Positions 7,391-63,190 of a DNA stretch of 64,000 bases are shown here, piece by piece (the first letter of the stretch is position 1; every line of letters starts with the position of its first letter). This DNA comes from Planoprotostelium fungivorum (Eukaryota > Evosea > Variosea > Cavosteliida > Cavosteliaceae). The stretch spans positions 62,001 to 126,000 of the forward strand of contig MDYQ01000048.1 of assembly GCA_003024175.1 (NCBI GenBank), written 5' to 3'. Made by a program: the position numbers and the translations under genes. Under the pieces are notes generated by a model. The model saw only the letters and a program-made list of their open reading frames with translations, was not told the origin of the DNA and did not search any database.

Positions 7391-10300
7391 TCATACGAAA
7401 CCGAACCCCTCGCTTCCGTATCGTACGGCGATGAGAACATTCTTCTTCACTTCCTCAGCCGTTTTGTATTCTGGCAGCTTGAGCAGATTGAAACTGTTTG
7501 ATCATCAAAACCATCGCGTCCATACGATCGATCGCCATCATCAAGTCAAGATCAAGGTGATGAAGTCTCACCATGTGCTTGCAGAAGGCAATCTAGACTC
7601 TCCTCCATCGTGTTTAACTTTTGAAACGGTAAACTTCTGTGGGCCTTGAGCCCCAACCAGATTGACAAAGCCTCCCTTCATCCATTCAATCTCAACCCCG
7701 TACGTAATTACGCACCGCCGGTACAGAACCACACCCCGTACTGAAGCGTAACAAAAGGACCCGTTCGTCCTGCGACATCTCCTCCACCGTCTGAATGGGT
7801 CAAATTATCGCATTCGCAGATTTCAGTCACCTCCCAGAACCATCTGATGACGTCATCAGATGCAGTGTAGCCTCGGTAGAAAGTATTTTCCCGCCAATTT
7901 GTCCATTCTATGCACTGTACACCGGACAACATCAAGTCCAATTCGTTCTCATTGAAGATCTTTAATTTGTCGATGTCGACACACTCTCTGAAACCCTATG
8001 GTCGACATAAATGAGATGACGAACGCAGGAATTCACCTCTTTAAAGTATCTCATCTGTCGTTTGGATGAAGTCATCAGTTTGAAACGGACCATTTCTTTT
8101 ACGTAACTCTGTTTGTTGCTTTCCGTTACGTTTTTACGTCTCCCTCCCTTCACTAAATCGATAGATTCGATCTCTCCTGACGTTTCGTCCTCGATCTACA
8201 ACGCTTCAGATATCGGGAAATGCGCGAAATCTCACTGACATCTACGCTGAAGAACATATCCAAGTCGGTGACGTCATTGGAGAGGGCCCAGTGGAGTGAC
8301 TTGTACATCTCTGGTTCTATCTCTTCCAAGTCTTCAATGTCCACCGAAAGATCGAGGAAAACTCTGAGAAAAGCGCGGGAAAAGTGAAACGCTAGTGGCT
8401 GCATTTGAATCAACGACATCCAACGGAAAATAGAAAGACATGATCATGATATGAGAACCATGATGAGAAATAGATATTAATAATATCATTAATATTTAAT
8501 ATTAATATTGAATGTATTGCCTCACGTGATTATATCGTACACAGAGTCCAACAATAAATCCTACACTCTTCCACGTGTCACCATCTACAACGCTCGTGTT
8601 CACTTCGTAAGCTCCCGTCCTCCTACACAATCGAAAGAGGTTGCATTCGTTTGAGACCAATTCAGATGTGAGGCAAGAGAAGAACTCTCTCCTCACACCA
8701 GGCCCCCTTCCTTCTTCTCCTTCGAATGCCAGCCAGGGTAATTGGGACACCTATTGGGACTCACTCGATCTACAACGCTGTAGATGTCACCTTCAGATCA
8801 CCCCTCTCGTAGTGCCTCTGTGGTCGATGAGATGAAAATTCGAGGAAATTTCACCGTGAATTGGATGAATAGATTCTTTCTGTGAAACAACAGTACGTCG
8901 TGTGAGGTCACGTGACTTCTACTCAAGAGCTCAGCCAACCACCTCCTCTTGTTCTCAAAATCCAACAGCCGACCTGGTCTCAATCAATTGTGCCGCCGTA
9001 CCCTCCCCACCCTCTTCCAGTAAGAACGACAGGTTGCTCAGCAGCAGATTCGGATTCTTTCTGACGCTCTCGTTCAGCAGTGAGAAGCAGACTGGGTCAG
9101 TAGCGATAGTCCTCAATACCTACGACGTCTTCAATGACATCATACGTCTCTGTAGATGGACCTCTCCCGCCATTTTCTTTAATCTCCCTTCCACCATCAG
9201 GTTACCCAACAGTTCCAATTGATTGGGACGCATCTTCACCACGGTAACTACCAAGTCCCAATGTCGGTGAAAACTCGCATAAAACAGTGGTGGCCATCCC
9301 CCGCGATCCTGACGGAATTGAGACTTATGATGACGTCATCGTTCACCTTCTCTAGTACGTCGGCACCCGACTCGATGAGTACCCTGGCACAATCAATTGA
9401 TCCATTCGCCGAACAGATGTGCAAGGGTGTCTCTCCATCGTGTGATCGAACCCCGGGTGACATTCCTCTCTCGAGTAAAAATCGGACGGCCTGGAATTCG
9501 GTCAACTACAACGAGACGTTCGGAATCCCCAAAATACCTCGGAACTTCCGCCCTCGGCCGCGTGGTGCATGAGAGTGTACCCTCGGTAATTCCGAACGTC
9601 CAACAGGTGGGTTCGATGTTCTAAGATATCTCTCAAGACATCACAAGCACCTGCAGCGGCTGCAGAATGTACCGGTAAATCACCTTGATCATTCTTCTCT
9701 TTGGTACTGCCATTTCGTCACGAGATTTCTAGGAAATATCGCTACCCACTTATTCATCTTCTCTCTCACCGTGCGGTACGTATGTACGTTTCCCGTGGCA
9801 GAGTAGTGGAGCACCGTGGAGCCTTCTTCGTCGACGAGATCTAGATCGGCTCCGTTGTTGAGTAGCAATTGTATGATGTTCTTGTGCCCGTTTTGGGCCG
9901 CGATCATCAGAGGGGTGACGCCATCATTTTCCGCTTCGTCGACAATTTGTCGACGTTGTTCTTGTGAATTTCCGCGGAGTACTTCTAAGACACCATCGAT
10001 GTCACCTGTTGCGTGTGAAAATTCGGTGAAATTTCTGTCGTTCACCCTCGCTGCATGCCTGGTGGATGGCCTTCCGTACTGGTGCGTACTCTTCCACTGG
10101 ATCAGCTTTGTTCATGAGAAGACTCAGGGGAAGAGAATTTTCTCCTGAAGAATCTGAGCTGTACCTGTCCTTGTTCGAATCTGTCGACGGAGAAAATTCC
10201 ACGAAATGTCTCACCCTTCGGCTAAGTCCAGTTGATCGTCGAGGCCGATCTTATCTTCTCCTACGCCGATCAATTCTAAATCTTCTGTGTCGAGTTGTAG

Positions 10301-11151
10301 ATCCTGATTGAATCTTTTCAATTTACGATTTCATCTGATCAAGTGTGGACAGTGGAGAATCAAGATCACCTTTTTCTCTCTTTTCTCCTCCTCTACTTCT
10401 GGTGAAGAGACTTCCTCCACTTGATCATCATCCACGACGAATCCATCATCGTCACTCGATGTGTTTTCCTCCCTCTCACTATTGAAAGATGTCACTCTAC
10501 CATCAACAGTTCATCGTATGTATCACTTACGGTGAAGCATTGTATCGATTCTGACTGGTGAGATATTGGTTGATCGTCCTCTTTTTCTTCCTCTTATGGT
10601 TCACCTGTCGCGGTCATCTCAATATATCAACGTGGACATGTTGCTTCACCTCTACTGGTGAATTGGGCTCGTTGATGTCTCTGTCGTCAGGAGCATCGTC
10701 ATCGTCGGCTGGGCCTTCTGAATAGGATAATAGGGACAAGTGGCCGTCATCGGGCGAAGACATGAATCTCTTCAGTTTGAACGAAGGATCCACCACTGTC
10801 CTCTCTTCTGCACGAACATGGAGTATCAGCTGATGTCCATCAGGATTGATGAGATGACATCAAGACGTCACCAGGTCAGCAACTTCTCTCGATAACTTTT
10901 CTGCCGCGTTGGTTGCAATCTGATTGAATGTCGTATCTTCAGCGCTGACAAACAGGACGATTTGACCGTCTTGCGCGAAGACGGTTGGAAATTCGAGAGA
11001 AAGAGTCAACCTCCATCGATCTTCATCGCCTGTGATGGACTGGTGGACAGATGATGTGGCCACAATCTCATCATCATCCAACACTGAAAGAACCTCAATT
11101 TCTCATACTGTGATTACATAACAAACCTCTGAGTTTCTTACGTGGAGGCAT
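7391..11151 (-). CDS. Ankyrin-repeat HECT-type E3 ubiquitin ligase
   Basis: The gene starts at 11151 with a three-codon exon (MPP), then an acidic Asp/Ser-rich N-terminal part. Ankyrin repeats follow (about 9250-10000; DGVTPLMIAAQNGH is typical). The HECT domain is spread over small exons from about 8800 to 7391: FEGEEGRGPGVRREFF, SNDVTDLDMFFSVD, DDVIRWFWEVTE, then RLPSASTCFN and the C-terminal GFGFV. HECT ligases accept ubiquitin on the Cys of the TCFN motif before passing it to a substrate. Here that Cys codon is split TG|T by the intron at 7494-7571. Ankyrin repeats probably select substrates. Several introns carry the ATCTACAACG element (8194, 8583, 8768). Exon edges in the middle were set by eye. 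Confidence 0.85.
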
Positions 11152-11244
11152 GTGACAACACGGCTGCGTATGATGGTGGATGATCATTGGTTGTAGACGG
11201 AAGGTTTTTGTCAAACGATCGTTTTTATTCGAACGATGACCTCT

Positions 11245-12122
11245 TCATCTGCCGTTGTTGTTACCGTTGATCTTCTCGAACCTTCTACCAGATTCCAGAT
11301 AAGCCTTCAATCCCTTCTTGTTGCCAAGACGTTCGTAATGACTTCTGAGGATGGGGTAGTTCTCTAGGAACTGAGCGTCCAAGTTGACGTGATTGTCTAC
11401 GAGATCCCAGATGAGCGCATCGGCGAAGGTAAACTTTTCCTTTAAGAACCAAGTGCTGCCTCCATCTCCGTTGGCCTTGAGATGATTCTCCACAACCTTG
11501 GCATGGCGAGATCCATTGGATTTGAGATAGACAGACTTGTCTTGTTGCTGCACATCAATCAGATGATGAGATGAAGTGATAGGAGGACACGAGAAAATGG
11601 TACGAGGACGCACATAGTCTGAGCTTCGATAGATGAGAGCGTCGTATGCGTTCCTCCAGTCGTCGATGATTCCACAGAGGGAGTCGATGCGGTAATGATC
11701 GGGCTCGGTGGTGGACGTCAGATCTGATTATCGTCAGCCTCGATCTTCAGAGTCTCTGCCCACCATGCTTCCTCCCGAGATATCTCAGAATGGCTTGAGA
11801 TTGCGCGTATACCTTTATGGTTTTAGAAGAGAGTGTGTGATGCACCATGCTCAATCACCTGATCGCCAACGGCGAGGGAGGGGACCTGACCGAAAGGGAT
11901 GAGACCTTGAGCAACATATCTCTGTTTGTTATCGTTCCACGTAGCCAGAGGGATAGACACGTATTCGTAATCGATCTCAGCTGCTTCCAACAGTAGACGT
12001 ATAACTTCTGTTCATCTCGACATCAGCATCGGCATCGTCTTCCATGAGTATGATCTGTTCTCACCTCCCTTCCCGCGGAGATCAAAGTAATAGAGGGTGG
12101 GCTTCTGGCTTTCCGTAGACAT
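11245..12122 (-). CDS. Glutathione S-transferase, sigma-like (copy 1)
   Basis: Starts at 12122 with MSTESQKPTLYYFDLRGKG, the N-terminal thioredoxin-like fold with the Tyr used by sigma-type GSTs to activate glutathione. The next exon contains VIRLLLEAAEI; QVPSLAVGDQ carries the cis-Pro region. C-terminal helical exons contain YRIDSLCGIIDDW and STWFLKEKFTFADALIWD, where the FTFAD pattern is a GST fold hallmark. Five introns lie at the same places as in the plus-strand copy at 22462-23324, and the protein is near identical in the last exon. Expected length is about 215 residues, normal for the family. The role is conjugation of glutathione to electrophiles, or prostaglandin-type isomerisation. 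Confidence 0.93.
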
Positions 12123-12337: not shown

Positions 12338-14588
12338 TCAAGTGATGATTCTATTCTTCTGGCTTCGAGCTAATCCAACCAGAAAGTGATATCTCTCTTT
12401 CAACTGCCCCGCGTCCTTCTTCTCATGAAACAGTTGAGACGTTGACAGCTGCACCCAGACGTCATGCGATGGCTCAGACTGCATCCTGGAGGCCAACAGA
12501 ATCTGTCTGTCTTCATCTCTCGTCCACGCGACCTTCTTCTCTTCCTTCTCCGTCTCTGTTGCAAGTGAGAAGAGAAAAAGAGGGCGTTGTAGATGACCTC
12601 GTCGGGCGTTGAGATCGTCTCCCTTCTCTTGTCCGTCGTGAGCGTATTGGCTCATTGTAGATAGAAGATTCTCCGTATTTTCCACGTCACTCAATATCTC
12701 GATCACGTTCGGTGAAATTTCATCGACCGCTTCCGGAGTTTTCTTCGAATTTTCCGGCTGTACGGACGTCAATACCTCGTGGAGAGAATAAAATGAAATA
12801 AAATCACCTCTCTTTTCTTCTTGTTTTTCGTCTTAGCCTTCTCTCCCTCTACAATGGCCTTGTTCAAATCGCAAGTGTACACTTCCTCCGTTCTCTGTCA
12901 CAATCAGTCATGACGATCATGATGAGCTTCCTCATCACCTGACTGATGAACTCCCTCAACTCTTGGTTACTCATGTGTTCCACGGAACAAGCTTCATCCT
13001 GCACGGCGTGTCTGTACAAGGTACGTACGTACTTGTGGTCCTTCCCTGGGAAGTAGAGGGATGCGATCAACATCCAGCTCTGCTTGTGGAGACGAACTGC
13101 AGCTAGGACCCTCTTTCTATCCGTAATGGTACCGTGTGTACTGATGTCCTTCGCTTCCTGAGAAATTGAGATGGCGCGTTGTAGATGGATGACGTCACCT
13201 TGAAGGTCTGGTTGCGACTCCAGTATCGATTTCTCTTCTTGATCTGCTCGATGGATTTACAAGGTAAAAACGCCTACCATGTTGTCAGAAAATCCATCTA
13301 CACCGTTGTAGATGACGATATCAGCTTCATACCTTTTGAATGCGGTCCCAATTTCGACCGTACATAGCGACCCCTCTGAAGAAGAGAGAGTCTTCTGCAT
13401 CCGTGAATATGGTCTTGGATTTGTATTTTGTAATGTCCGGTTTCGTCTTCACCGTGGACATTTGATTGGTGAAGCGTGACGTGATGCTTTCGGTGAGAGG
13501 CTTCGACTCTGGGGGTATACACAAGTTGGGTGAGAAATATTCTGAGAATATTCCAAAGTATCGAGCGATGCTGCTGTTATCTACAAGTGCTTTTGACTTC
13601 TTGATCTATTTTTAGATGTGAGCTGGATGTGTTCTTGATGATCGTGCATTCTTTTTAAAAAAAGAGGATCGCAAACGACAGCTGGATAGAATTCATTTCT
13701 CACCTTTTCTACATGTTTGAGTGAAGGGCAGTTGAAAACACTGGTTTCTGTCGATTCTTTTCTCTTGGCCTCAAGTTGTCTCAGAAAGCTCATGCTGTTG
13801 TTGAATATTCCCCATTTGTCTTGTTGTCCCCCCGACCACAAGCAATTCTATCCGTTCGATGAGAGACATGTGATGTCCATGTCCATCACCTGTATCAATA
13901 ATTGGATGTGATCGTTCATCTGGGCTTGGAGAGCCTCCCTCTGAGCGGTTGTAAATGGACTGCACTCGGTGACTGGATTGTCTTCGTTTTCGCTCGCGGT
14001 GAGATCAAAGTCTGCATCCAATTGATCCGAAGGAATGTCCAATGAGTTCTCGTTCAGAAAATGGAAATCGTGGACGTTGATGGGCTCTTGAAGTTGAAAA
14101 GCGATCTCATCGAAGATCTTGAGTTCGATCTCCGAAAATTGAATGTCCTTGAGAGATAGATGGGCTCGAGTTCGATTTGAAATGGGATCCTCTAAGGTGA
14201 CGTTACTTTCTGGTTCCGAGTGTTCCTGAGTTTGGATCACTTTTCGATTCAAAGAGTCAAAATGGACATACCAGAGGGGGTTCATGGATGGGATTGTTAT
14301 CACTCGGTGATGGCTCGTGTAGCTCTATTTCGTCAGCTTGTGTCGTGTGATTTGGAAGCTCAGATAAACGATTCAGATCTGAAAAATGATCAGTCTTGGA
14401 TCACACTGCATCTCTGTATTTTCGTTCATGTATTTACCGAATAGTTCGTGTTCATCTTCCTCCTCTTGAATGGGAAGATAGTCTTCATCATCTGAGTCTT
14501 GCTCTATAGAAGGTAGCCATTCGAAATAGTCTAATTTCCTTCTCTTTGGAGACTGTTCTACATCATGAAACTCTACAAGTCGGTCCAT
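12338..14588 (-). CDS. SANT/Myb-domain nuclear protein, GON4L-like
   Basis: Starts at 14588; the N terminus has a basic patch (KRRKLDYFEW) and an acidic stretch (EEEDEHELF). A SANT/Myb repeat lies at about 13340-13420 (FTDAEDSLFFRGVAMYGRNW) and a second at about 12390-12530 (VAWTRDEDRQILL, ending LKERYHFL). Between them is a helical stretch (about 12920-13080). Tandem acidic and SANT regions with this spacing recall GON-4-like or Cramped-type chromatin repressors, but I can only call the SANT domains firmly. Several introns contain CGTTGTAGAT (12585, 13177) or the full palindrome (13296). DNA or histone binding is inferred from the domain type. Confidence 0.7.
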
Positions 14589-16881: not shown

Positions 16882-18974
16882 ATGAGCGAGGTAAGAAGAC
16901 CACCCCTGACATTCACTATTCTTCGTTGTCACAATCCGCTTTCTTTGTGCGATATCGGACGTTGTGTATCATAGCCCATCTCTTAAATGAGTCTGAGTCG
17001 ATCCCCACAGTTGGGCCTGTCCTCTGAGAGCTGGTCCAAGCCGGATAAAGAGGGGGAGCTCAAGAAGCAGGGACATGTGGTCAAGAATTGGAAGACAAGA
17101 TGGTTCATCATTCAGAACGACTATCTCTTCTATTTTAGAGCCAAAGGAGTAAGCCGAATCTCATTTCACTTCGTGTAATGATTCGATCTCACCGTTATTA
17201 AGGAAGGAAAGCCTCTCGGAGTCGTACCATTGAGAGGTGCTCACATCAAGACGGCCCCGAAAAGTTCAAAGACCTCCTGTCTCGAGCTATATTCACCTTC
17301 CATCGAGAAGACATTTTTGATTCAATGTGCGAACGATGCCGATTTAGAGGAATGGAAGCAGGCCATCGACAACGGATCTCAATATTCCACCGTATCTTCC
17401 CCGTATAATGTACTTCATCAGATCCATGTCGATTACAACTCTGCTACTGGTTTCTCTGTAAGTTCTGTCGTCCCAATCGTCCCTCTCTAACACTTCGACA
17501 GGGATTACCTTCCGAATGGGAGGTCATGTTGAAGACATCCGGTATCTCGAAGGACGACATTTTGGCCAACCCAGAGACGGCCCTGGAGGTGTTGGAGTTC
17601 TTTGAAGGAGAAGGAAAACCTGCGCACACCACCATCCCATTACCCGAGGAAGAGGTGCATTGTCCTCATACACCATCTTTCTCACGTTCTTCAGGTGGTC
17701 ACACTCCCAGATCTCGTTTCGAAGCAAGATCCGACGTCCATCTACTTGGACATGGACAAGATCGGAGAGGGGTGAGATGACTTTCAGAATCGTCAGACGC
17801 TGAGACATCACAGAGCCGCCGGTGAGGTCTTTGTCGCGAACGACTCTCGCACCCGACGAAAGGTGAGACATCCATCATCCACTCTTCATCTTCCATCATC
17901 ATCTCACCTCCTTCTAAGGTTGCCGTTAAGAAGATGGAGATCTCTCAGGACAACACAAAGTTGCTCTGCACCGAGATTGGAATCTTAAAGTCATGCCGCC
18001 ACCCCAACATCGTAGAGTACATCGACTCGTACATCGTGGACACCCGCAACCTCTGGGTGGTGATGGAGTACATGGGTGGAGGTGAAAATGGCGGGAAAAA
18101 TTTCCGCGAAATCTCACCCCTTCAGGTTGCCTCACAGACATCCTAGAGCTGTTCGACGATCTCAAATTGACCGAGCCACAGATCGCCTTCTGCTGCCGCG
18201 AGGTACGTTCCATTCGTCATCTACAACGTTGCAGATCGATGACCCTCCACAGACTCTCAAGGCCCTGAGCTACATCCACAAGCAGCACAGAATCCATCGC
18301 GACATCAAATCGGACAACATGCTCGTGTCCACCGATGGTTTCGTCAAAGTGGCCGATTTCGGTTACGCAGCACAGCTGACTGCCAAGCAAGAGAAGAGGA
18401 ACACCGTGGTCGGGACTCCCTACTGGATGGTGACTCATGAGACGTTAGACTCTTCTGAATCTGTCAGGCCCCGGAGCTCATCCGAGGACATGATTACGGA
18501 ACAAAAGTCGACATTTGGAGTTTAGGCATCATGCTCATGGAGATGGTAGAGGGAGAGCCACCTTACATGGAATTCCCTCCACTCAGGGTGAACTTGAGAT
18601 CCATTCCGTTCGATTTTGTTTCTATTCATTTGGGACCGAACGGTGTCGAACGGTGGACTCATGGGTTCCGCAGGCGTTGTTCCAGATCACGACGAAGGGT
18701 ATCCCACCTCTACGCGAGCCACACAAGTGGTCGAGAGACCTGAGCAACTTCTACGACAGATGTTTAGATAAGGACCCCGAAAAGAGAGCCTCCGCCGAAC
18801 AACTCCTGCAGGTGCGTCCCATCATCATGATGATCCATCTCGATGACGTCCACGATGAGAGTTGTAGAGAGACTCATTTCGATACAGCATCCATTCCTCA
18901 GATTATCGTGCGAGGCAAAGGACATGGTGGCAGTCGTTCGCAAAGCCAAGCAGCTTCGTGCTCGAATCGATTAA
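16882..18974 (+). CDS. PAK: p21-activated protein kinase (PH-CRIB-kinase)
   Basis: The best start is ATG 16882, giving a three-codon first exon spliced to 17012 (MSE-LGLSSES). Domains in order: PH (17040-17370, [10 protein letters not shown]), CRIB ([13 protein letters not shown], then LPSEWEVML, 17390-17520), and a complete Ser/Thr kinase (17740-18940). Kinase motifs visible after splicing are [24 protein letters not shown] and GTPYWMAPE. PAKs are switched on by GTP-bound Rac or Cdc42 through the CRIB and act on actin and myosin. The PH-CRIB-kinase order matches amoebal and fungal (Cla4-like) PAKs. Introns are typical; the one at about 18205-18251 contains ATCTACAACGTTGCAGAT, and the one at about 18081-18125 contains GGCGGGAAA. 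Confidence 0.93.
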
Positions 18975-20231
18975 ACCCACACTTGTGTGTAACATAATAG
19001 AGTAGAGTTATTTCAGTCTCTTCTCTTCTCTCTTCTCTGTCGTGCGTGATCGTCAGATGTTTGAAGATGAGATAGACAAATCGATGAGTTTTATTTGTTC
19101 ATCTGCTGGAGTGGTGGAGCGAAGACTGTTAGTGTGAGCCCAATGGAAGACAGTGGAGATACTCGGCCATATGCTGCGATCCTCGATTACAGTCCTACTA
19201 AAAGAGATCAAGGTCAACTGGGGGATGTGTGACGAGATCGTTAACAATCTCGTTTACGGATAGATGCGGCCCAGCCGGTCGACTGCGATGCTCGATTCAA
19301 TGAAATCATCCCTACTGGGCCGACCTTCACGATCTAGTTGAGCTCATTCACCACGGTGGAGTCTTTGAACAGAGGGGTCCGTCATTCCATCCGTTGTGTG
19401 TATGCGATCAACTCCAAGGCAAACCGAACCCCACATCAACCTTTTTGGGTCTGCCTTGTACCGGAAATCTCCATTTTTTAAAATCACAACTACAACGATT
19501 CACAGGGTGAGCGTAACGCGATGGTAATGTCCATGGTTGATCTCATTTTCATCGTGTGACTTTCTGTCGGAGAATGCAATACAGAATAAATCCTAGGGAT
19601 GCCGTCCACATTCATTTTCGTATGACGGTCCGGCCGAACAAAATGAGGATGTCGATGGTCAAGATGGAAGCTTCTGATTATGATAAATTGCTTTCATCCA
19701 TTCGAATTGTTTCTTCACACACTCTTGGGTCTGAATGACGTTGTCGAAGATGGGCGAGAGGCATCATTAAGTAGAAGATCAAGAGAGGTGTTGTTCTTTT
19801 TTTTATTACTATTCAGGAGTGTCTGTAGCCTTAGATGAAAACCTGCGCGACGAACGCAGGGAAAAGCGAGCCAACAGAATTTATCGTCTATGCACCTTAA
19901 AATCACTCAATAGTGTGCTCATTTGACTCCATCTTCATTGAAAAAAGATAACATTAGAATGAGTTGCAGAGTTGGGTATAATCAGCGGCGTCGAACGATT
20001 TATAGCCTGTAATATCATACTGACCGTTGACATTACCATCCAATCGTGATGGTAGGTCCATTGAATGGAAGAAGATCGACCGGACGATCTCTGAATCGGT
20101 ACTTACGGTACATCAATACATCTTCTTCACCCTGTCAGGCGCTTCATAGTTGTACATATGTTCTATAAAAGTGAAAATGCCAATATTGCAGATTTCGGCT
20201 CATCACACGAACGGCAGATCACATTGGAAAG
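18975..20231. other. Intergenic or unresolved stretch with possible minus-strand exons
   Basis: On the minus strand a possible last exon ends at 19091 (LQQMNK-stop) with AATAAA overlapping the stop, the pattern of true 3' ends here. Another minus-strand segment (about 19262-19345) has coding-like codon use but cannot be joined in phase. A short plus-strand ORF (19556-19738) is also open. I cannot build a convincing gene. A TATAAAA at 20164-20170 probably serves the gene at 20232. Confidence 0.3.
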
Positions 20232-22461: not shown

Positions 22462-23324
22462 ATGTCTACTGATACTCAAAAGCCCACCCTCTACTACTTC
22501 GACCTCCGCGGAAAAGGAGGTAAGTTCAGATCATGAGAACGCGACATCGGAGTTGACAATGACGACAGAAGTCATACGTCTTCTCTTGGAGGCAGCCGAG
22601 ATTCCGTACGATGAAGTGACGATCACTCATGCTACGTGGGACGACAATAAACACAAGTTTAATGAACAAGGTCTCCTCCCTTTCGGTCAGATACCCTCTC
22701 TCACTGTTGGTGATCAGGTGATTGAGCGAATGATGATGCATCACGAACCACCTTCTAAATCTCTCAAAAGGTGTATGCACAGTCTCAGGCTATCCTAAGA
22801 TATCTCGGTCGAAGATACGGTGACGTCCTCTCAGAAGATCGAATGAGCTGATGACAATCAGATCTGACGTCCACGACCGAGCCCGATCATTACCGCATCG
22901 ACGCCCTCTGTTCAATCATCGCAGACTGGAGGAACGCATACGACGCTCTCATCTATCGGAGCTCAGACTATGTACGTCACCCCCTCCTATCACTTGATCT
23001 CATCATCTGATTGATGTCCAGCAACAAGACAAGTCTGTCTATCTCAAATCCAACGGTCTCGGCCACATCACCGTTGTGGACAAGTTTCTCAAGGCCAACG
23101 GAGATGGAGGCAGCACTTGGTTCTTAAAGGACAAGTTTACCTTTGCCGATGTTCTCATCTGGGACCTCGTAGATAGTCACCTGCTTTTGGACGCTCAGTT
23201 CTTAGAAAGCTATCCCGTCACCCGAGGTCATTATGAACGTCTTCGCAACATGAGGGGAGTGAATAAGTATTTGGAATCGGGCAGAAGGTCGGAGAAGATC
23301 AACGGCAATGACAATGGAAGATGA
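22462..23324 (+). CDS. Glutathione S-transferase, sigma-like (copy 2)
   Basis: Starts at 22462 with MSTDTQKPTLYYFDLRGKG and ends at TGA 23322-23324. The five intron positions equal those of copy 1 (11245-12122), and the last exon (QQDKSVYLKSNG to INGNDNGR) differs at only about one residue in six. Substrate-site residues in the C-terminal domain differ slightly, so specificity may have shifted. The two copies lie about 10 kb apart in opposite orientation, which points to an inverted DNA-level duplication rather than retroposition. The protein is about 205-215 residues, normal for a sigma GST. Confidence 0.93.
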
Positions 23325-23483: not shown

Positions 23484-25666
23484 TTATGTCGCGCTCGTCG
23501 CGGGTGCCTTCGATCTGGCCGATGTCGGTGAGGTCCTCTGAACCGGTGGAGGAGTCGGTGAAGTGTGTCTTCGTGTGGGTGATGGAGGTGATGTCACGCG
23601 GGCTCCGCTCGCATTTGCAGGTTTCGGTGATGCGACGGGGCGAGGTGATGTGATCCCGGTGCGAGATGATGAAAGAGGGGTGCGAGGAGATACCAAAGGC
23701 TTCGGAGACGTCAGAGTGGTTCTCAAAGAAGGTGAACTGCGAGGTGATGGTGTTGCACTCCCAGCTGACACGTTCCATCAGACATGTTCCATCATCCAAT
23801 CATCTCATACCCTTCGAACTCCTCAGAGGTGTCTTCGTCGTGATTTTAACGGTCTCTCCCAATGTGGGAACAACGTCACTGTCCGTCTTCAAATCGAGCG
23901 ATCTCATGCCGAGGGGTGATGTGATCTTGGGCGTCATCGGTGAGCGTTTCACTCCAGTGGGCGACGTCTTCGGTGATGTCTTTGGAGAAGATGAAGTCGT
24001 CAGACGAACTGATGTAGGTGATGTCAGCCTGGTAGATACGGGGGAGGTGATGCGGGGTGGTGTCGGCGAGGTCAGTCGGGTGGACGCGGGGGAGGTGATC
24101 CTGGGAGAGGGAGGAGTGGCTGGTTGTAGTTTCGTAGTTGGGGTTCTGGGAGAGGATCTGGGGGAGATGTTGGGAGCTGAACTTCGAAGGGGAGTGGGGG
24201 ACTGAAGAGCGTCAGGTTGATGATGATCGTGATGATGATCGTCCATCATCGTGGTTGTGATGAAGATCGAATCTTCGATGCATGATGGAGGATCATGATA
24301 TAAATGCATGATGAGACGATTGATGTGTGCCGCGATGACGGGTGACAACAAAATCAAATAAAACCCACCTTCTTCAACGCATCTCTCTGCATCTTCGGTA
24401 CGGCTACCTTCACGTTCGTTTCTGCCGTTACTTTTGTCCACTGGTCCTCTTTATTTTCTGATTCTATTCAGTTTTGTCTCTCTACACGACTCACCCAAGT
24501 CCTTCTTGATGTCGCTCAGGTCCAAATCCGTTTCCGAATTCTTTTCCAAGAAATCTCTCATGCTCATCCAGCCTCCACCGACTCGAACTGTGACAAGGGG
24601 TGAGAAAAGTGGTGGAAAACTCGATGAAATCTACCTGCCAGGTGCCCGTTTACGCATTTGATCAAGACTCTCAGCGCACCCAACATGTACACACCCGCCG
24701 ATATCTATTCTTCCGTCATTTTTCCGGTTCACCATCATCACTACCCCCACCTTTTTCACGGAAATTTCTTGAGGTAAGGGTGTCGTCTCCATCAGCCGGT
24801 CGATGTCTTCCTCGTCCACTCGTACGTCATCGTGATCATCTTGGCTCGTTGTAGATAGATCGACCGATTTCAACTTCAAGTCGGCCGCCTCCAATTCCTT
24901 CTCAGAGAAGTTGACCTGATGACGTCATATTACGTCATCACACGATGTGGAGGGGACGTACCTTGTGATCGTCACCAGCCTGGATGTTGGGGTGGAAATT
25001 CCATTGGGATCTCGCATGTCTGTCCAACAGCAACAATGCGTTGATGACTTTGGGTAAGTTCTTCTTTTCGAATAAGTCTGTCGCTGTGAAGAGCTCTTGC
25101 TCATCAATGCCAGCTGATTTGAAAATGAGACGGAGGGATGGAATGGATGACGAGAGAGGACGGAGGATGTTACCTTTCGACTTGCAGAAATCGACAAAGA
25201 GATGGATGTTCTCCAGTTGGAAGAATGTTGCATTTTTACCCTTGTGAAAGTTTGGAATCGAGTTGGGAAGCATCTTGTTGGCCAGTTCGCACAGTTTGGT
25301 CTGTATAGACGTGAGTGATGGAAAATGGGCTCCTGTCGTCATTCACCCCAGATCGAAGTGAATCACAGACACGGTCGAGATCATCACTGTCAGCTCTTCC
25401 TATCGCTTCGCCTTCGAACACTTCGCACAGCCAGCGATAGACTTGATTCGTTCTGAGCAATGTTTAATGTTTAATGCAACGGTCAGACGCAGGGATTGTC
25501 ACCTCTGAAGAAAGAAGGAGGCAGATTGGTCTTGTCGCTTCATGGTAAAGAGAGAAACGTTCGTGTCCATCGTCTTACGCTCGGGCCTCGGGCGATGTTG
25601 TGTTGGTTCCTCAGAGGAAGATAGAGGGGGCTGCGCATGTCTCTTCAGAAGGTCGGGTTGCTCCAT
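23484..25666 (-). CDS. GAS2-like protein: calponin-homology plus GAR domain with Ser/Thr-Pro tail
   Basis: Starts at 25666 (MEQPDLLKRHAQPP). A single CH domain spans three exons (about 24965-25470: VYRWLCEVFEGEA, TKLCELANKMLP, FFQLENIHLFVDFCKSKG, LFEKKNLPKVINALLLLD), the type found in calponin and GAS2. After a charged linker comes LRVLIKCVNGHLAVRVGGGW (about 24570-24720), the end of a GAR (Gas2-related) microtubule-binding domain. The tail (23484-24200) is packed with TSP and SPR units, a likely target of proline-directed kinases and of microtubule binding. CH-GAR proteins crosslink actin and microtubules. Exons were joined by eye and fit in phase. Confidence 0.83.
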
Positions 25667-30383: not shown

Positions 30384-30613
30384 TTCTTTACGAATACGAT
30401 TGTAAATACATGTACTTCTGATGAACATGATGTACCATCTTCGATTCCTAAGTCATCATCGAGAGAATTGACTGGTACCAGAAGATCACAGAGTTCAATT
30501 GAAACGATCGTTAGTATAACCATCGATGGTATGATGGAGTCGTTGCATCACGAACAGTAGGTGCAGTCATTCATCCATCCATCGTGTTGGACCTCGTCAT
30601 AGAAGTATGAAAA

Positions 30614-30732
30614 AGCTACGACACGATGGATTCCCGTGCGGTCTCCCATCACAGTATTAGCATCGCCCACAGTCGCTTACCTTACGAGTTCGGAATGGGT
30701 TCGTGGGTTTTCAACCAGGTATGATCGTAGCT
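30614..30732 (-). rRNA. 5S ribosomal RNA
   Basis: Read on the minus strand, 119 nt begin AGCTACGATCATACC and end GTCGTAGCT, so the ends pair as the 5S acceptor stem. Internal blocks CCCATTCCGAACTCG and GATGGGAGACCGC are classic 5S loop sequences and the internal Pol III control region. A T-run right after the 3' end is the Pol III terminator. It is a single copy here, not in a tandem array. Confidence 0.97.
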
Positions 30733-31937: not shown

Positions 31938-32329
31938 TGTCGTCTGTTCGTTTATGCTTATGTGTTGAATGTGTGTGAATTTCCCCAGCCCAAATTGACC
32001 TGGCCGTTCACCGAATGTCACATAGCTTCTGAGATTTTTTCGCTAACTGTGATTATCTACTCACCTTCTCAATGAAGTGAGGCACGAGACATTGTATGAG
32101 TGATGCTGCAGTAGTTGATTGTTGTGTCATTCTTCTCTCACGTGATGAGCCGTAATTCAGATCGATCGTTTACCACTCACCGACAACCTATGATTACATA
32201 CTCCAAGTACGCTTTGTTTTTGTCGATGATCTCTCTGATAGAGAGATGCTCATCTTGTCAGATAACCCACTACAACGGGTGGCACGTTGAAAACCGAAAT
32301 TTTTCTGCCGCTCATCATCTTCTATAAAG

Positions 32330-37268: not shown

Positions 37269-37544
37269 TCATAGTCTGCGGCCGCAATCTACAACGCGCC
37301 ACAGCAGTCGAAACACGTGTAAATGCCGTGTAAACTGTGGCATGCACAGAGCCTGCTGCAGCGGGTCTAAACCAGCACACACACAGAATCCACTTGATCT
37401 CGGTTCAGGGAGAGGCATCGTAGGGTTGATGAAGGTGATACTGATCTTCACTCCATCTTTCGATGCAAAGAGGACGGCCCCCTCAGAAGACAAAGACAAG
37501 AGGGCTCCATCGTTGGGTGCTGGTGAAAAAACAGAGGCCCTCAT
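37269..37544 (-). CDS. Hypothetical or fragmentary ORF
   Basis: ATG 37544 opens 91 codons (MRASVFSPAPNDGALLS) downstream of DHX35 and next to the foldback element. The first 45 residues look beta-rich and coding-like; the second half looks random. It may be a gene remnant cut by the foldback insertion. ATCTACAACG occurs at 37287-37296. Confidence 0.25.
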   Translation of the reverse strand: MRASVFSPAPNDGALLSLSSEGAVLFASKDGVKISITFINPTMPLPEPRSSGFCVCAGLDPLQQALCMPQFTRHLHVFRLLWRVVDCGRRL

Positions 37545-37616: not shown

Positions 37617-40705
<3,089 letters not shown>

Positions 40706-43607: not shown

Positions 43608-44815
43608 AGGATGCAGTGTCGGTGACTCGTACCCAATTTCTACTCGGAATTCCGAATCATTGTGGCGTTCCAAATGTCACTCCGTTCCAAATTATTTTGG
43701 TCGCGCGAGAACGAGAAGGAAAATGCTCACACCGGTTCAAACACACATGTCTGGGGTCATCGTCGCCATCCTCTATCTCTTCTCCATTTGCCTTGGGCAA
43801 AGTGATCGCACCCACACGTTGACGACTGACTTCGATCAGAATGCACCGACATCGACATCCAAGACGATTGTGGACGTTGCAAACCATCGACGGGATCTTA
43901 TGTGTATGCTTGTATGTGGGTTGAATGTTCGACGTTTCAGAATGCAACCCAATGTCCACCACGAGGCAGATGTGTGACAAACGATTTCAATCAAACGGCT
44001 TACAATAAGACCCCTCAATACTGGCAGTGAGCATCGATCGTTGGTGTCTGATTGATTGACATCCAATCAGAAACGTGATGCAATGCGCGGAGAAATGTGA
44101 CCATGTCGAAACGACCGCCTGGTGCGATAATGGAGAAGAAAAAACGTATGCAGAATTACCGAGAGAAGAGTGAGACCCATCTCGATATATGATCGTCATC
44201 AACTCGAGATCAGAGCACACATCGACCGAATGACTTGGATCGGTATTGGATTGGGCTCTTTCTTCGCCATCACAGCTCTCATCGTCCTCTCCTCCTATCT
44301 CATCTACAAACACATCATGAGGAGAAGACATCGTCAATATCATGCGATCCAATGACCTCGACCTTCTTTATTTCTACTTGTCTATTCGATGACCCAGTCT
44401 TGTCCTGCCGTTCTCAGACGGTCGATGAACGTGGGGCCGTAAGCCGCCGCGGGCGTGCGGAAACCTCCCTTAGCGCATCTACAACGAGTCAGACACGAAC
44501 GTGACAGGTTGTAGATGCTCACTTGTCTCGGCTGAGGGCGAGATGTACGGCAGACTCGCTGAGCATTCTAGCAGTATCACCGTAGCCGAATATCCGTGCT
44601 CTTCACCCAGTAGGGCGGCAGTTCGGTAAGCGTGAGCCTTCTGAGAGAACTCGACGAAATTTCGTTCACTCCAGAAGACTTGACGGTTGACGGGAGCCAT
44701 CATGAAGGGTGCCGTCCATGACTTCTCTTCATCGTCGTAGAAGGGAAGGAGGGTGTCTTTACTCTTCGGGGCGGTGGCAGATTTCGGGCTGGGGCAGAGG
44801 TTATGGGGTTCGACA
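43130..44815. repeat. Left arm of an inverted segmental duplication
   Basis: This arm carries part of the ankyrin gene, the membrane protein gene and a broken SCCPDH copy. The reverse complement matches 62343-63640 almost base for base in shared blocks (for example 44071-44560 against 62990-63490). Each arm has lost different internal pieces. Introns are shared, so the copying was at DNA level. Confidence 0.9.
43723..44355 (+). CDS. Small type I membrane protein with Cys-rich ectodomain
   Basis: Start at 43723 (MLTPVQTHMSG) or 43747. A signal peptide (VIVAILYLFSICLG) precedes a short ectodomain with several Cys (TQCPPRGRCV, QCAEKCDHVE, AWCDNGEE). After introns at about 43913-43941, 44028-44068 and 44169-44209 comes one membrane helix (IGIGLGSFFAITALIVLSSY) and a basic tail ending YHAIQ. 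About 130 residues. The last two exons are duplicated at 63217-63490. Function unknown; a surface receptor or adhesion role is possible. Confidence 0.7.
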
Positions 44816-44957: not shown

Positions 44958-45028
44958 GGCTCTGTAGTTCAGTGGTAAAATACTACCTTAGGGTGGTAGT
45001 GCCTCGGGTTCGATTCCCGACAGAGCCC
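44958..45028 (+). tRNA. tRNA-Pro (AGG)
   Basis: GGCTCTG (44958-44964) pairs with CAGAGCC (45021-45027). The anticodon stem CTACC/GGTAG encloses TTAGGGT, anticodon AGG, reading CCU. Box A (TAGTTCAGTGG) and box B (GGTTCGATTCC) are perfect. No intron. A T-rich run follows downstream. Confidence 0.97.
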
Positions 45029-45193
45029 CTCCTTTTGCTGTCCTTATACCAATTTTGGGGTAGATTTCATCACCTACGCAACCTCGTTGTAGAGGAATAT
45101 TTCCCACGTCTCTCGCTCATTATATGTATCACATTGTTGGAACAGTTGGCCTTGACACAAAAGATAGATCAAGATTGTCGTTTCGTTTATTGA

Positions 45194-47574: not shown

Positions 47575-51429
<3,855 letters not shown>

Positions 51430-51839: not shown

Positions 51840-53406
51840 ATGAAGGTCGCCTGCACTCTCCTCCTTCTCTGCGCTACCATCGTCTTAGCACAGAACTGTG
51901 GCTGTTCCTCTTCCGAGCCTTGCTGCAGGTGACCACTCGATATCGGCAAACATTTATGGATATCTGATCGTGATGTAGCCAGTGGGGTTACTGTGGAACC
52001 ACCGCCGACTACTGCGACAAGAACAAGGTGAATCGCACGCTCTTAAACGCTCGAGATGTGTAGCTTACATTCCAAAGGGATGTAAATCTGGATGCTGGGG
52101 AGGCAGTTCTTCATCTGGCTCAGGTAGCTCCACCTCGAGCTCTTCTGGTTCCTCTNCGAGCCTTGCTGCAGGTGACCATTCGATATCGGCAAACATGTAT
52201 GGATATCTGATCGTGATGTAGTCAGTGGGGTTACTGTGGAACCACCGCCGACTACTGCGACAAGAACAAGGTGAATCGCACGCTCTAAAAACCACGAGAT
52301 GTGTAGCTGACGTTCCAAAGGGATGTAAATCCGGATGCTGGGGAGGCAGTTCTTCATCTGGCTCAGGTAGCTCCACCTCCAGCTCGTCTGGTTCCTCTGG
52401 AGGCTCATCTTCATCGACCAGCGGAAGCAGCTCTTCCGGTCTGACCGATTGCCAGCAGGAAATCATCTTCCGTGTGACCAGTGTCTTCGAGACGGGAAGC
52501 CAGAACCTCAACTTTGACTTCTGTGATTACGAGAACGATGGACAAGGTACGAGACGGCGGTCATCCATCGATCCATTTCTGATAGACATCGATAGGATAT
52601 GACGCTGGTTTCATGAGTGCTACCAGCCACTCCGGAGCCATCTTGGGTATAGTGAAGAAGTACTGTGCCAAGGTTTCCAACGCAGGCATCTGCTCCATGA
52701 TCAACCCCCTCCAAAACGTAACCTCTCTCATCCACCTCTTCATCTTCTCTCATCGTCCATCCATACCGACGTCAGACGACTCCATCATCTTCCATCATCT
52801 TGTGTCTGGTGACTCATTAGACGAACAGGCCGTTGGCTCTGCCACCAAGAACGGACTCGGACAGCTGTGCAGCCTGTGGAAGCAAGCCTCTAACGACAAG
52901 AAGTTCCACGATGCACAGTGGCAATACACCGTCGAGAATTACTTCTCCCCCGCCACTCGTCACGCCAAAGAGGTAGATGAGACGTTTCAGACGAACATGA
53001 GATCTCATATGACATCAGATCGGACTCACATTGCCCCTCGGTCTCGGTCAATTCTACGACACCAGCATCCAACTCGGTGATGGTGACGACCAGAACTCAT
53101 TGGGAGGCATCATCAACACCATCAACCGAAAGGTGAAGACCATCTTTCCATCACATGATGTCTGACTCTGAATAGTTGGGCAAGCCCGGATCTGCCGGTC
53201 AAACCAAGTGGCTCGCCGCTTTCATGCAGGAGAGAACCCAAGCCGAGTACAGATTAGGAGGAGCTTACCCCGGCACCCTCTACCGCATCAAGAGCTACCA
53301 GCACGTTCTTAACGCAGGACAGGCCGACATGAAGAGCAAGACCGTGTCTTTCTTGGACAACAGCGGCGGCGTCATGTCCGTGACCTGCTCGGGCAACCTG
53401 CATTAA
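51840..53406 (+). CDS. Secreted GH46 chitosanase with chitin-binding domains
   Basis: ATG 51840 starts a signal peptide (MKVACTLLLLCATIVLA). A hevein-type chitin-binding domain follows (CGCSSSEPCC, SQWGYCGTTADYCDKN, GCKSGCWGG), then a Ser/Gly linker. This block appears twice (see 51913-52398). The catalytic domain is GH46: VTSVFETG with the catalytic Glu, YENDGQGYDAGF with the Asp region, then HSGAILGIVKKYC. It ends VTCSGNLH at TAA 53404-53406. The enzyme should cut chitosan in fungal walls, fitting a mycophagous amoeba. Introns at about 52550-52598, 52720-52808 and others join in phase. One undetermined base (52156) sits in the repeat. Confidence 0.9.
51913..52398. repeat. 243-bp tandem duplication of the chitin-binding domain block
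   Basis: Two direct copies (51913-52155 and 52156-52398) differ at a few bases. The unit includes two introns and one hevein-like domain plus part of the linker. The only N of the window, at 52156, lies exactly at the junction. Confidence 0.9.
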
Positions 53407-56010: not shown

Positions 56011-59000
56011 TCACACAACACGATCTATTACGGTGCTTTTCTCTTTCCCAAGCCAATGTGGTCCAACCACCCTTGCAGTCGATCCAATTGGTGGAAAGAT
56101 AATCCTCTGCCGCGTGAAGTCGAATAACTGAGGGCGGGGAGACTCTCGTCTTGTGTTGTGAGAGGCGGCCTCTTTGGACTGGGGGGTGGACTCCACGTCC
56201 ACGGTGCCGGCCTCCTCCTTCTCTCAGAGATACTCTTTCTCTGCGCGATTTTCAGTGTCCATCATCATCATCTGTGTGGTCTTGTGATGCGATCGTGTGA
56301 GGCAATCATCATGTGATGATGATGTACTGCGATGATGATGTGACGATATCATGTGGAGAACTGATGATGTGATGATGATATCATGTGATGTATACATCAG
56401 ATCTGCATGATGTGATGATCATGATCATCACCTGCACCGGTTCTACTTCTTCGTCCGACCCAGACGACTCCTCGTTGTCATGACGATCACGAGGTGTCTT
56501 CTTTTCCACCTCACGGTGCGGTCTCTTACTCTCCCCCCTCCCTGCCGTCGGCGGATCGATCTTTGTCTGTATTCTCCTCCTCTTCGAAGTTCGAATTGGC
56601 CTCGAAAGAGTTGTCACCTCTCTCACTTTCTAACGTTACGGTGAGTTTAGTGTATCATCAATCTGTACACCTTCTCTTTCGGTCGCTGCTTGTCTATGGC
56701 TTTCTGTTTGTTCATGAGATCGACGAGAGAACTGTGGAAATTGAGTGGAGGAGGTCGTGTGTGGATCATGCGAAATGTGATGATGATGGATGATCGTGAT
56801 GATCATGTTTGATCATTGTGATGGTGATGATGTTCATGATGTTCGTGTGATGATGATGATGGACTGTCCGATCACATCGTGTCGATGACATCAAACTCTC
56901 ACCCCGTATCATCCACCGCAACCTGCTCATCATCAGCACCTCCCCTCTCCATCCTCTCACCCCTCTCAATTTCCAGAAATTCATCTTGTCTACAACGACT
57001 TTTTCGAAATAATTCCGTCCCAACTGACCTGACATGAGAGCAGCGATCCTCCTGGTGAGATTTTCCTCGGTGAGCGTGTATTCATCGCGTAGCTCGAATG
57101 CGATTTGTTTCGCGGTCACCACCATTCCCATCTCTCTCACTTTCCTCGCAATTCTCTGCATGTCCGCGAGGGACTGATTGTCGATGTTCGGTCCATCTAC
57201 ATCAGATCCGTCCGAATCGTCCGAATGGGTCTCGATGTGGGTCACCGGCTCCCTCGCGATCTCTTCTCCGTCGACATTCTTTCTCTTGTCGACGTCGATG
57301 TCGCCTTCGTGGAGGGGTTCTATTCTGACGATCTTCTTCGATGTGGTGACCCGTGATGAGATGATGATGGGTTCATCGATGATGTTGCATGATGTGTGTC
57401 CGGTGCCCTCTGATGTCTCTCGTTCGTTCTTCATGGTAGTCTGTATCTCACAAATCACGTCTCGGTGTGACGCGTCGGGACTGTCGACGTTGTTTCGTTT
57501 CTCCCCTGTAGTGTCGACACTTGGTTCGGTGGAGGTCGTGGGACTGGAAGGCTTGTCCCTTGTCGTGGAGTCCGTCATCTTCTGGACCGTCTTCTCGGTA
57601 ATGTCGACAGATCGTATGGACGGGGTAGACTTCCTCTTGTCGACGTTCTCTCTCGTTCCTTTCCTTGGTCTGTCGACGGATTCGACGTTCACATGGCCAT
57701 GAACTTGTGTGGATTTCTCTGAAATGTCGACGGGGGAGGGTACTGAAGGTGAATCACCATTGTAGCGTGCGGCTCCCTTCTCAGAAACGTCGACGGGCAC
57801 CTTCGTACTCCTCTTGTCCCTCGCCCTCTTTGCAGCGGCTCCTGCTTCACCACCATTGTCGACATTCTTTACAGAAGGGGCTACGCTCTCAGCTGCGGTA
57901 CTGTTGGTCTCGACTACGGTGTCTACGTTCTTTCGTTCGTCGACACGTCGTGTGTTCGTGTTGTTTTCTCTCTGTCCCTTCGTTGTCTCTTTCGATGGAA
58001 GGCTCGCGTTGGTCTGGCTGTCGACGTTTCGGCTGTCGACATTTCTGAGTGGCTCTGTGGGTGGAAGTCTCAGCCCGTTACCCGCTGTAGACTCTTCCTC
58101 ATGATCTCTGCTCGGATCATCATCACGGCATGAGACATTTGATGATGGACGATCAGTGTTCGGATGCACATGATGAACCAAAGTCTCTTCCACAGGAGGA
58201 GGTGTTGTTCGTTTGATTGACACTGCTGACTTTCTCCTCACGACATCACCTCTGATGACATCCTTCAATTTCATATGTTTTGTCTTCCTCTGTGTCGGCA
58301 ACGGAGGTTGTACATCTCTATCTACGACAACATTGTCCGGGCCGGGTGCCGCCGTAGCTTCATCTATCTTCTCCTCCTCTTCTTCTCAGCGAAATTTCAC
58401 TCGATTCTCCCACCTTGACTCGTTGTAGTGCGATGTCGTTGCCTGTCGTTTCTAATTCTTTGATTCCCAGGGCCCTGAGTGAACTTTCGTCGCTGCCACT
58501 GGTCCAGAAGCTGGCGCCGCTGTCTATGTCGACGTGGATCCAGAGGTGATGGTTCCTCACGCCGATGACTGTTCCTGCTCCTGATAGAACGTTGAGTCGT
58601 TGGTGATGTCTGATGATGTATGATGATGTCTGATGATGTCTGATGTTTGATGATGTCTGATGATGTATGATGATGTATGATGAAAGATGACGCTTCAGGG
58701 AGTGGAATGTGCGTGCGGAGGATGAAGATGGTGAGACGATCACCTCTCGGAGTTATCACGCGAGAATTTGGTTGGAATCCAAATTTCTTCCATTCCACTG
58801 GTGTCACATCGAATTGGTGCCTCAATCCACTCTTGGTTCTATTGACATGTGTCATCACCATCATCTTCTAATGGAAGGAGGTGATGTCTGTAGACAACGA
58901 CTCACAGGTACGTTGTGTACTGATGATCCGGGAGGACGATGGTGGCGGTTGTCTTTGGTCGAGGTGTGTCGATTCTCTTTCCTTCTCTTGTGATTTGTTT

Positions 59001-60640: not shown

Positions 60641-60667
60641 CAGAGATCCCCAGTACAAACAGACACC

Positions 60668-61550: not shown

Positions 61551-63190
61551 ATGAGCCAACTGAGAGAGAGAAAGCACAAGGATAGAGAGTACGATATCGT
61601 CGTATTCGGAGCAACGAGCTTCGCTGGAGCGCTGGTCACAGAGTACCTCTTGAAGCATTACAATCAGTCCACTCTGAAGTGGACCATCGCAGGCCGCAGC
61701 TCATCCAGATTAGAGGATGTGAAGAAGAGAGTCAGACAGTACTCGGTCACTGCTGACGTAAGTATCTTGGATTGCATTTCCTCTTCACGCCTGATGGATT
61801 CTGCAGGAATTACGTCCCATCGTGGCAGATTCCTCAAACAAGGCCTCGCTCGACGCCATGACATCCAAGACGAGAGTGATCATCAGCACCGTGGGCCCCT
61901 TCGCCCTCTACGGATCCCTTCTTGTTCAATCATGTCTAGAGAATGGAACCGATTACGTCGACATCACGGGAGAGCCCCACTGGGTGAGCGAGGATCACCA
62001 ACGCGTGAGAATGACGGTCTTTCGCAGGTTAGAAAGATGATCGATCAACACAATCAGAAGGCGGAGGAGAACGGTACCCTCTTTGTCAACATGAGCGGTT
62101 TCGATTCCATCCCATCCGACATTGGAACTCTGATGGTCGTCGATCATCTCAAGAAGAAGGGAGCCATCGCCTCCGAAGTCAAGTCTTTCTTCGTTCTTCG
62201 CGAGACGAAGGTAAATCATGTTCCATCATCATATCATACGACATCGTCTTTGCACCTTCTCACGTTCGACGACAGGGTGGAGCCTCTGGAGGCACCATCG
62301 CCTCCGCCATCGAGGCCGTAGAGAGCGGCGGCCTCGGTTCCATGTCGAACCCCCATTACCTCTGCCCCAGCCCGAAATCTGCCGCCGCCGCCGCCCCGAA
62401 GAGTAAAGACACTCTCCTTCCCTTCTACGACGATGAAGAGAAGTCATGGACGGCACCCTTCATGATGGCACCCGTCAACCGCCAAGTCGTCCGGAGGTGA
62501 ACGAAATTTCATCGAGTTCTCTCAGAAGGCTCACGCGTACAGAACTGCCGCCCTACTGGGTGAAGAGCACGGATATTCACAGAAATTTCAGTACACAGAG
62601 GTACTCAGCACACCCAATGTCTTTGTGTCGGGTGTCGTCTTTGTCGTCATGATTGTGGCCGGTCTCCTCTTGTCGGTGTCTTTCTCGAGGAATATCATCA
62701 AGAAGTTCGTTCCCGCCCCAGGTGAGGTTTTGGCGGGAAAATGGCGCTGAAGGTTGTACAGGTACTGGACCCACGCGTAAGATCATCGAGACTGGAAAGT
62801 GGGCGACTCATTACATCGCCAAGGGAAGAACTCCGGTGAGAATCTTCTTTGAATATTTTCCCGCCACATTTTCCCGCCATTTTCTTCTGCGAAACCTCCA
62901 CGGAATTTCATCGATTTTTCTCACACACGGTAGGACGGAAGAGAGGTAACTGTCCGTGGTAGAGCTAAGGGCCACCAGGACCCTGGCTACGGTGACACTG
63001 CCAGAATGCTCAGCGAGTCTGCCGTACATCTCGCCCTCAGCCGAGACAAGTGAGCATCTACAACCTGTCACGTTCGTGTCTGACTCGTTGTAGATGCGCT
63101 AAGGGAGGTTTCCGCACGCCCGCGGCGGCTTACGGCCCCACGTTCATCGACCGTCTGAGAACGGCAGGACAAGACTGGGTCATCGAATAG
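61551..63190 (+). CDS. SCCPDH: Saccharopine dehydrogenase-like oxidoreductase
   Basis: ATG 61551 opens MSQLRERKHKDREYDIVVFG, a Rossmann start (FGATSFAGALVTEYL). AGRSS, STVGPFALYG, CLENGTDYVDITGEPHW and MSGFDSIPSDIG are family signatures of SCCPDH. A hydrophobic segment (FVSGVVFVVMIVAGLLLSV) follows, then GYGDTARMLSESA and CAKGGFRTPAAAYG, ending VIE-stop at 63190. The enzyme is NAD(P)-binding and lipid-droplet associated in animals; its reaction is unclear. The final intron (63052-63092) contains an 11-bp inverted repeat built from the intron element and uses CTCGTTGTAG as its acceptor. The junction near 62495-62511 does not fit a clean intron; the broken copy has one base fewer there and reads through. 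Confidence 0.88.

Follow-up and report, generated by a model that had tools for sequence, protein, structure and literature searches.

What kind of element is an eight-letter word that keeps returning in the introns of a single stretch of DNA from a free-living amoeba? The question is raised by a 64-kb window (C414:62001-126000; "window" denotes the whole stretch analysed) of an intron-rich assembly of 36.86 Mb in 471 contigs, which is filed at NCBI as Planoprotostelium fungivorum and which, according to the excerpted text of one study, is in reality Protostelium aurantium (PMC10639083). An earlier note had drawn attention to the word, CGTTGTAG, and had suggested an introner-type mobile intron, a splicing enhancer or a binding site carried by introns. 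The motif proved to be a sharp, orientation-independent word with a fixed pair geometry, which lies mostly in short introns and is scarce near gene starts. Judging from these sequence features, we consider it probable, if by no means certain, that the motif is a genome-wide gene-body element and a putative site for a sequence-specific DNA-binding protein able to dimerise. A literature search returned no title or abstract opening describing this motif.

A sharply defined word with thousands of copies

Within the window, CGTTGTAG occurs 39 times against 1.01 expected, the maximum in 100 shuffles being 4, and CGTTGTAGA occurs 31 times against 0.25 expected. Genome-wide counts were compared with those of the motif word read backwards. 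By this measure CGTTGTAGAT has 7,984 copies (3,973 + 4,011) and its control 62 (27 + 35), the reversed word being ~130 times rarer; TGACTCGTTGTAG has 966 copies (control 2), and the exact palindrome ATCTACAACGTTGTAGAT has 287 (control 0). This palindrome, under which the earlier note had presented the element, is thus real in the genome; in the window it has no exact copy, and near-palindromes with one mismatch occur there instead. The four sites described as full palindromes (8768, 13296, 18219 and 37772) each carry one such mismatch. Exact palindrome matches in 15 stretches of a prokaryote collection, and none in a viral collection, were uninformative.

Moreover, the word tolerates little variation. 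Counting introns with splice-site copies excluded, we found CGTTGTAG 65 times in sense and CTACAACG 50 times in antisense, against just 0-8 occurrences per orientation for each one-letter variant of CGTTGTAG. Genome-wide, 20,545 words lie within one mismatch of CGTTGTAGAT (control 2,606), and its 30 one-letter variants average ~419 copies versus 7,984 exact ones, the control variants averaging ~85. One-letter variants are therefore scarce yet above control; a portion of them differ at the first position (3,234; control 460). Single copies lean towards TGRCT-CGTTGTAG-ATGGA, giving a single-site consensus of about TGRCTCGTTGTAGATGGA; the upstream half is either of the TGRCT type or CTACAA, which produces the palindrome, with few intermediates.

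The motif is concentrated in gene bodies and scarce near gene starts

Gene models were produced by our own small ab initio gene finder, run without RNA support and with the minimum intron set at 36 nt, over a 304-kb sample comprising the window, an adjoining 10 kb, 200 kb of C1 and three more 10-kb pieces. It predicted 122 genes and 1,018 introns with a median length of 46 nt, 659 of them 36-50 nt long, although some of the longer ones may be wrong; donors are GTGAGT-like and acceptors mostly CAG. For four window genes, 6 of 13 motif introns fall inside Pfam matches (the OB fold of a DEAH helicase, a GCN5-like acetyltransferase and its bromodomain, ankyrin and HECT), indicating that the reading frames of those genes run on across them.

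The 231 copies of CGTTGTAG in this sample are distributed as 160 in introns (2.75 per kb), 63 in exons (0.36 per kb) and 8 outside predicted genes (0.12 per kb), so that the intron enrichment claimed from the window holds over the larger sample. Densities in introns, exons and DNA outside genes were 2.19, 0.38 and 0.13 per kb when the intron-content model was removed, and 2.20, 0.34 and 0.16 per kb when the motif was scrambled ahead of gene finding; the contrast persisted in both cases. Altogether, 139 of the 1,018 introns contain the motif. By the same models, 24 of the 39 window copies are intronic, as the earlier note had stated of most copies (5 of them forming the exact 3′ end), 10 are exonic and 5 lie outside predicted genes. 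Exons are themselves enriched relative to synonymous-codon shuffles (CTACAACG, 52 versus 15.0 expected; CGTTGTAG, 11 versus 0.4), and non-palindromic copies inside introns comprise 47 in sense and 30 in antisense. Motif use differs among genes beyond chance (0.8% of simulations were as extreme), and sense-rich genes are also antisense-rich (rho 0.34, p 0.004, 69 genes longer than 1.5 kb). A single-strand run of ~300 kb along contig 1 was also considered, and was ruled out by examining C1:140001-340000.

Position within the gene has a pronounced effect. The motif is present in 1 of 117 first introns, 3 of 105 second introns and 14 of 48 ninth introns; within 450 bp of the start codon it occurs in 5 of 244 introns, and beyond that in 134 of 774 (Fisher p 7e-12). 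Over all DNA, the interval from -300 to +450 bp, taken from whichever start codon is nearest, contains only 8 of 231 copies, and density levels off at 1.0-1.4 per kb past about +900 bp. The 27.3 kb of exon lying 0-300 bp from the start hold no copy. No clear gradient was seen towards the stop codon. An intron-mediated-enhancement signal, considered on the basis of position in the gene, was rejected because the gradient runs the opposite way.

Paired copies have a fixed geometry

Head-to-head pairs of the form CTACAAC-N(1-30)-GTTGTAG number 193 against 38 in the control, and tail-to-tail pairs are about as frequent as in the control (55 versus 48). With gaps of 8-18 there are 69 head-to-head pairs (control 13), and among the first 50 of these listed the gap is 13 in 31 and 14 in 7. 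For direct repeats, a start-to-start distance of 22 bp, seen in 25 of the first 100 places listed, is the only spacing that stands out; 17 more of these lie at 24 bp, largely from runs of neighbouring repeats.

The inner arms of the 31 gap-13 pairs share 2.61 of 6 identical letters (3.16 when shuffled) and are pairable at 3.19 of 6 positions (3.70 for shuffled arms), and in none of the 31 pairs do they pair fully as RNA. Since the arms are less pairable than shuffled ones, RNA stems are not the conserved feature, and an RNA hairpin for the spaced pairs was rejected on these grounds. In our interpretation, the palindrome is a candidate dimer site on DNA, and so is the 13-bp pair.

A putative protein-binding site within genes

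A site for a DNA-binding protein is expected to combine a sharp consensus, occurrence in either orientation and a fixed pair spacing, and all three were found here; it is this combination of sharp constraint, orientation independence and fixed spacing that argues for a DNA-protein site. Of the proposals made in the earlier note, the binding site carried by introns is thus the one that fares best, at the level of DNA, with the amendment that exons also carry the motif at lower density and that it is not strictly intronic. A protein would bind the motif duplex, the paired copies either overlapping as a palindrome or standing head to head 13 bp apart, and once bound it may act on transcription or chromatin within genes, so that the motif would be an intragenic regulatory or chromatin-structuring element. 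Sites would be selected against near promoters, short introns would carry most copies as the freest DNA inside genes, and the employment of copies in splicing, as a branch point together with a 3′ splice site (TGACTCGTTGTAG/AT), would be secondary.

Several observations weigh against this reading. Convergent intergenic DNA, which is far from starts, holds only 2 copies in 13.3 kb; promoter distance thus does not account for the rarity outside genes, and the element belongs to gene bodies rather than being merely excluded from promoters. Once introns closer than 750 bp to the start are set aside, the fraction carrying a copy changes little with size (24% of those measuring 36-40 nt, 15% of those measuring 121-400 nt); a freely placed DNA site would not require so close a tie to introns. 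Sense copies outnumber antisense copies in introns even without those at splice sites, direct repeats overall are not above control (659 versus 806), and the gene models are our own ab initio predictions.

Periodic An/Tn clusters in Caenorhabditis elegans are concentrated in introns. They form a non-coding signature in expressed genes that works at the level of DNA or chromatin, as the amoeba motif may do, but in the excerpted description they are periodicities of A/T runs, whereas the amoeba motif is a sharp word (PMC7725773). Plants have motifs of intron-mediated enhancement (TTNGATYTG in Arabidopsis), which are likewise short words repeated in introns and which are active within transcribed DNA; as described in the excerpted source, however, they are enriched in promoter-proximal introns, precisely where the amoeba motif is scarce (PMC6760150). 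Recurrent, promoter-distant DNA-protein sites inside genes, to which the amoeba motif would be comparable, exist in animals as enhancers within genes or exons and as motifs that anchor loops, such as the CTEP-bound motif of ctenophores, as far as the excerpts of these papers extend (PMC12221973, PMC13216554). The amoeba sites differ from what those excerpts describe in lying in ~40-nt introns of a compact genome, and a protein bound to them, or looping between them, is putative.

Were the motif such a protein-binding site, it would constitute a genome-wide regulatory or chromatin element beyond animals and plants, located in gene bodies rather than promoters, and very short introns would gain a role at the DNA level. 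The sites are so sharp and so many that the binding protein should be easily isolated, which makes the question directly testable. A broader picture, which we offer tentatively and regard as possible rather than probable, is that much of the sequence-specific regulatory DNA of this compact genome resides in transcribed gene bodies, chiefly in introns of 36-50 nt, and away from promoters. A putative dimeric architectural or regulatory protein would mark gene bodies past the first ~500-900 bp through ~8,000 strongest sites, and introns would stay short and numerous in part because they provide slots for these sites, some of which would have turned into 3′ splice sites.

Splicing, selfish DNA and mobile introns as alternatives

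Certain copies do take part in splicing. Exactly CGTTGTAG terminates 34 of the 1,018 introns, making it the commonest last 8-mer, and 12 of these introns read TGACTCGTTGTAG, which places TGAC at 10-13 nt, as is usual for branch points; this subset therefore serves both as a branch point and as a 3′ splice site. One alternative is an RNA-level element: a pre-mRNA word, bound by a splicing factor or forming a hairpin, that would aid very short, promoter-distant introns. The introns ending in the motif, with branch-point-like TGAC 10 nt upstream, the roughly eightfold higher density in introns than in exons, the near independence from intron length and the scarcity in convergent intergenic DNA are in its favour. 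Nevertheless, we regard it as rather unlikely. An RNA enhancer is expected in one orientation, yet antisense copies are frequent in introns and exons alike; the spaced pairs lack fully pairing inner arms; exon copies are no nearer to splice sites than chance (80 nt versus 80 expected, 61 sites); copies in introns of at least 80 nt show no clear closeness to the ends (p 0.19, 17 sites); and early introns are motif-poor although they are spliced as well. The occurrence in both orientations, the exon enrichment and the motif-poor introns near starts thus speak against a general strand-specific splicing enhancer, and of that earlier suggestion the splice-site part is what survives. Motif introns have mostly GTGAG-like donors; the excerpted text of a published study gives 265 minor (U12-type) introns for this genome (PMC10639083). 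Pairing with the U2 branch-point region was weighed in thought only and offered no good match.

A second alternative is a selfish or recombination site, spread or maintained by a transposase-derived or recombination protein with no benefit to host genes. Copies in the thousands and a palindromic, head-to-head layout, which may recall the dimer sites of transposase-like proteins, would suit it. We nonetheless think it improbable: nothing is conserved past the motif, no target-site duplication (TSD) is seen, the scarcity of one-letter variants means that decayed copies are not seen, and copies are accommodated in coding sequence and even used as splice sites.

That the motif is the terminal repeat of an introner, a mobile element creating introns by insertion, is very doubtful. 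With introners the motif shares its thousands of mainly intronic copies and an occasional contribution of the 3′ splice site, and the SCCPDH intron with an 11-bp inverted repeat at its two ends also speaks for the idea. Introners of the DNA-transposon kind are marked by TSDs and terminal inverted repeats (TIRs), although the excerpted source adds that some lack both (PMC9860276). In motif introns, neither end-to-end inverted repeats nor flanking direct repeats exceed those of shuffled partners, and the only two cases of an 11-bp TIR are the duplicated SCCPDH intron. There is no sign of a conserved body either: outside the motif, 139 motif introns share 41 12-mers, fewer than the 71 shared by 139 motif-free introns. 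Furthermore, the motif is also exonic, and when ten pairs of paralogous genes were compared, three motif introns, in four comparisons, had a motif-free intron as counterpart at the same position, which is unlike introners. The paralogues C1_65 and C1_66, whose proteins are 49% identical, both retain CATCTACAACG in otherwise dissimilar introns, in favour of the protein-binding reading. This small paralogue set contains 14 motif-intron instances, 6 at shared and 8 at unshared positions, a sample too small to set against the 111 of 203 other introns at shared positions. The mobile intron proposed earlier is therefore abandoned.

Finally, there is next to no chance that the motif merely follows from codon use or simple composition (ATC TAC AAC G, Ile-Tyr-Asn). 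The Tyr-Asn frame does account for 28 of the 52 copies of CTACAACG in exons, but the excess is intronic, persists over Markov and synonymous-shuffle expectations and far exceeds the reversed-word control; the intron counts already refute the idea.

Sites in the window

Of the 33 positions first reported for the window, 31 match CGTTGTAG sites within a few bases, and the remaining two (44508 and 63054) read GTTGTAG and lack the C in front. Eight sites had been missed: 1285 and 2473, which lie outside the range then covered, and 9506, 19490, 32270, 33601, 41840 and 49936.

The ankyrin-HECT gene carries intronic copies at 8196-8203 (-), 8585-8592 (-), the latter within the HECT match, and 9506-9513 (-), together with the near-palindrome ATCTACAACGCTGTAGAT at 8768-8785. 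Introns further along contain copies antisense to the gene at 12585-12592 (+) and 13177-13184 (+), the near-palindrome ATCTACACCGTTGTAGAT at 13296-13313 and, in a kinase-like gene, the near-palindrome ATCTACAACGTTGCAGAT at 18219-18236. In the DEAH-helicase gene, the near-palindrome ATCTACAACGGTGTAGAT (37772-37789) lies in an intron within the OB-fold match, and another intronic copy lies at 37930-37937 (-). Intronic copies at 38315-38322 (-) and 38338-38345 (-) form a direct pair 23 bp apart, and an antisense one occupies 38692-38699 (+). Introns of the GCN5/PCAF-like gene hold a copy at 49320-49327 (+), the near-palindrome GTCTACAGCGTTGTAGAT at 50252-50269, within the acetyltransferase match, and an antisense copy at 50906-50913 (-); a direct pair 22 bp apart is formed by intronic copies at 51099-51106 (+), within the bromodomain match, and 51121-51128 (+).

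Copies forming the 3′ end of an intron were found at 33233-33240 (+) in a bromodomain-like gene and 34603-34610 (+), both as TGACTCGTTGTAG. Here, and in the last SCCPDH intron, the 3′ splice sites indicated previously (33240, 34610 and 63093) agree with predicted exons that begin at 33241, 34611 and 63094. Two further copies at 3′ splice sites lie on the minus strand, at 27745-27752 (-) and 56990-56997 (-).

Exonic copies are present in a K319L-like gene at 1285-1292 (-) and 2473-2480 (+), and in antisense at 24847-24854 (+), 27303-27310 (+), 33601-33608 (-), 38150-38157 (+), 39650-39657 (+), 41840-41847 (-), 49936-49943 (-) and 58421-58428 (+). Copies outside predicted genes are at 19490-19497 (-), 32270-32277 (-) and 45085-45092 (+), with others just outside a predicted gene at 35229-35236 (+) and just outside the predicted DHX gene at 37289-37296 (-).

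The last SCCPDH intron (63050-63093, +; 44 nt) contains GCATCTACAAC (63054-63064) and GTTGTAGATGC (63087-63097), confirming the 11-bp inverted repeat described before, and its 3′ splice site reads CTGACTCGTTGTAG. The end of this gene, including the motif intron, belongs to an inverted duplicate of 521 bp, 99% alike (44067-44587 and 62985-63505), which is extended by shorter stretches (I5, I6 and I7). The copy near 44 kb looks partial, and CGTTGTAG is found in it at 44479-44486 (-).

Other intron words and neighbouring features

Three other words, TGACGTCA, GAAATTTC and TTTCCCGCC, are likewise enriched in later introns; we take them to resemble cyclic-AMP response element (CRE), heat-shock and E2F sites. 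Among palindromic 8-mers in introns at least 900 bp from the start codon, TGACGTCA (50 versus 3.7) and GAAATTTC (28 versus 1.1) stand out, and 24 of 25 TTTCCCGCC sites lie within genes and no closer than 427 bp to the start. These words are only partly of the same class as CGTTGTAG, since TGACGTCA does turn up in the earliest introns (4 of 88) and GAAATTTC is also over-represented in the DNA upstream of genes (10 versus 1.5). The E2F-like TTTCCCGCC occurs in later introns at window positions 62731, 62856 and 62869, at L026:9211 and 9225 and at L027:3249 and 3262. These positions belong to the two SCCPDH-type genes and one further gene, and several of them are close neighbours at a spacing of 13-14 bp.

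The glutathione-S-transferase-like genes at 11245-12122 and 22462-23324 have opposite orientations and encode proteins that are 77% identical, and the introns of both are motif-free. The window also contains a 5S rRNA gene on the minus strand (30613-30732) and a tRNA-Pro (AGG) gene (44958-45029). A 242-bp tandem duplication, 95% alike (51914-52398), lies in the predicted gene at 51840-53406, whose predicted protein repeats EPCCSQWGYCGTTADYCDKN. Tandem repeats of 21 bp occupy a coding-like frame at 36344-36448, and an imperfect 12-bp repeat (TCAACATCAACA-like) within the GCN5/PCAF-like gene (49640-49834) is called as exon, probably through mis-modelling.

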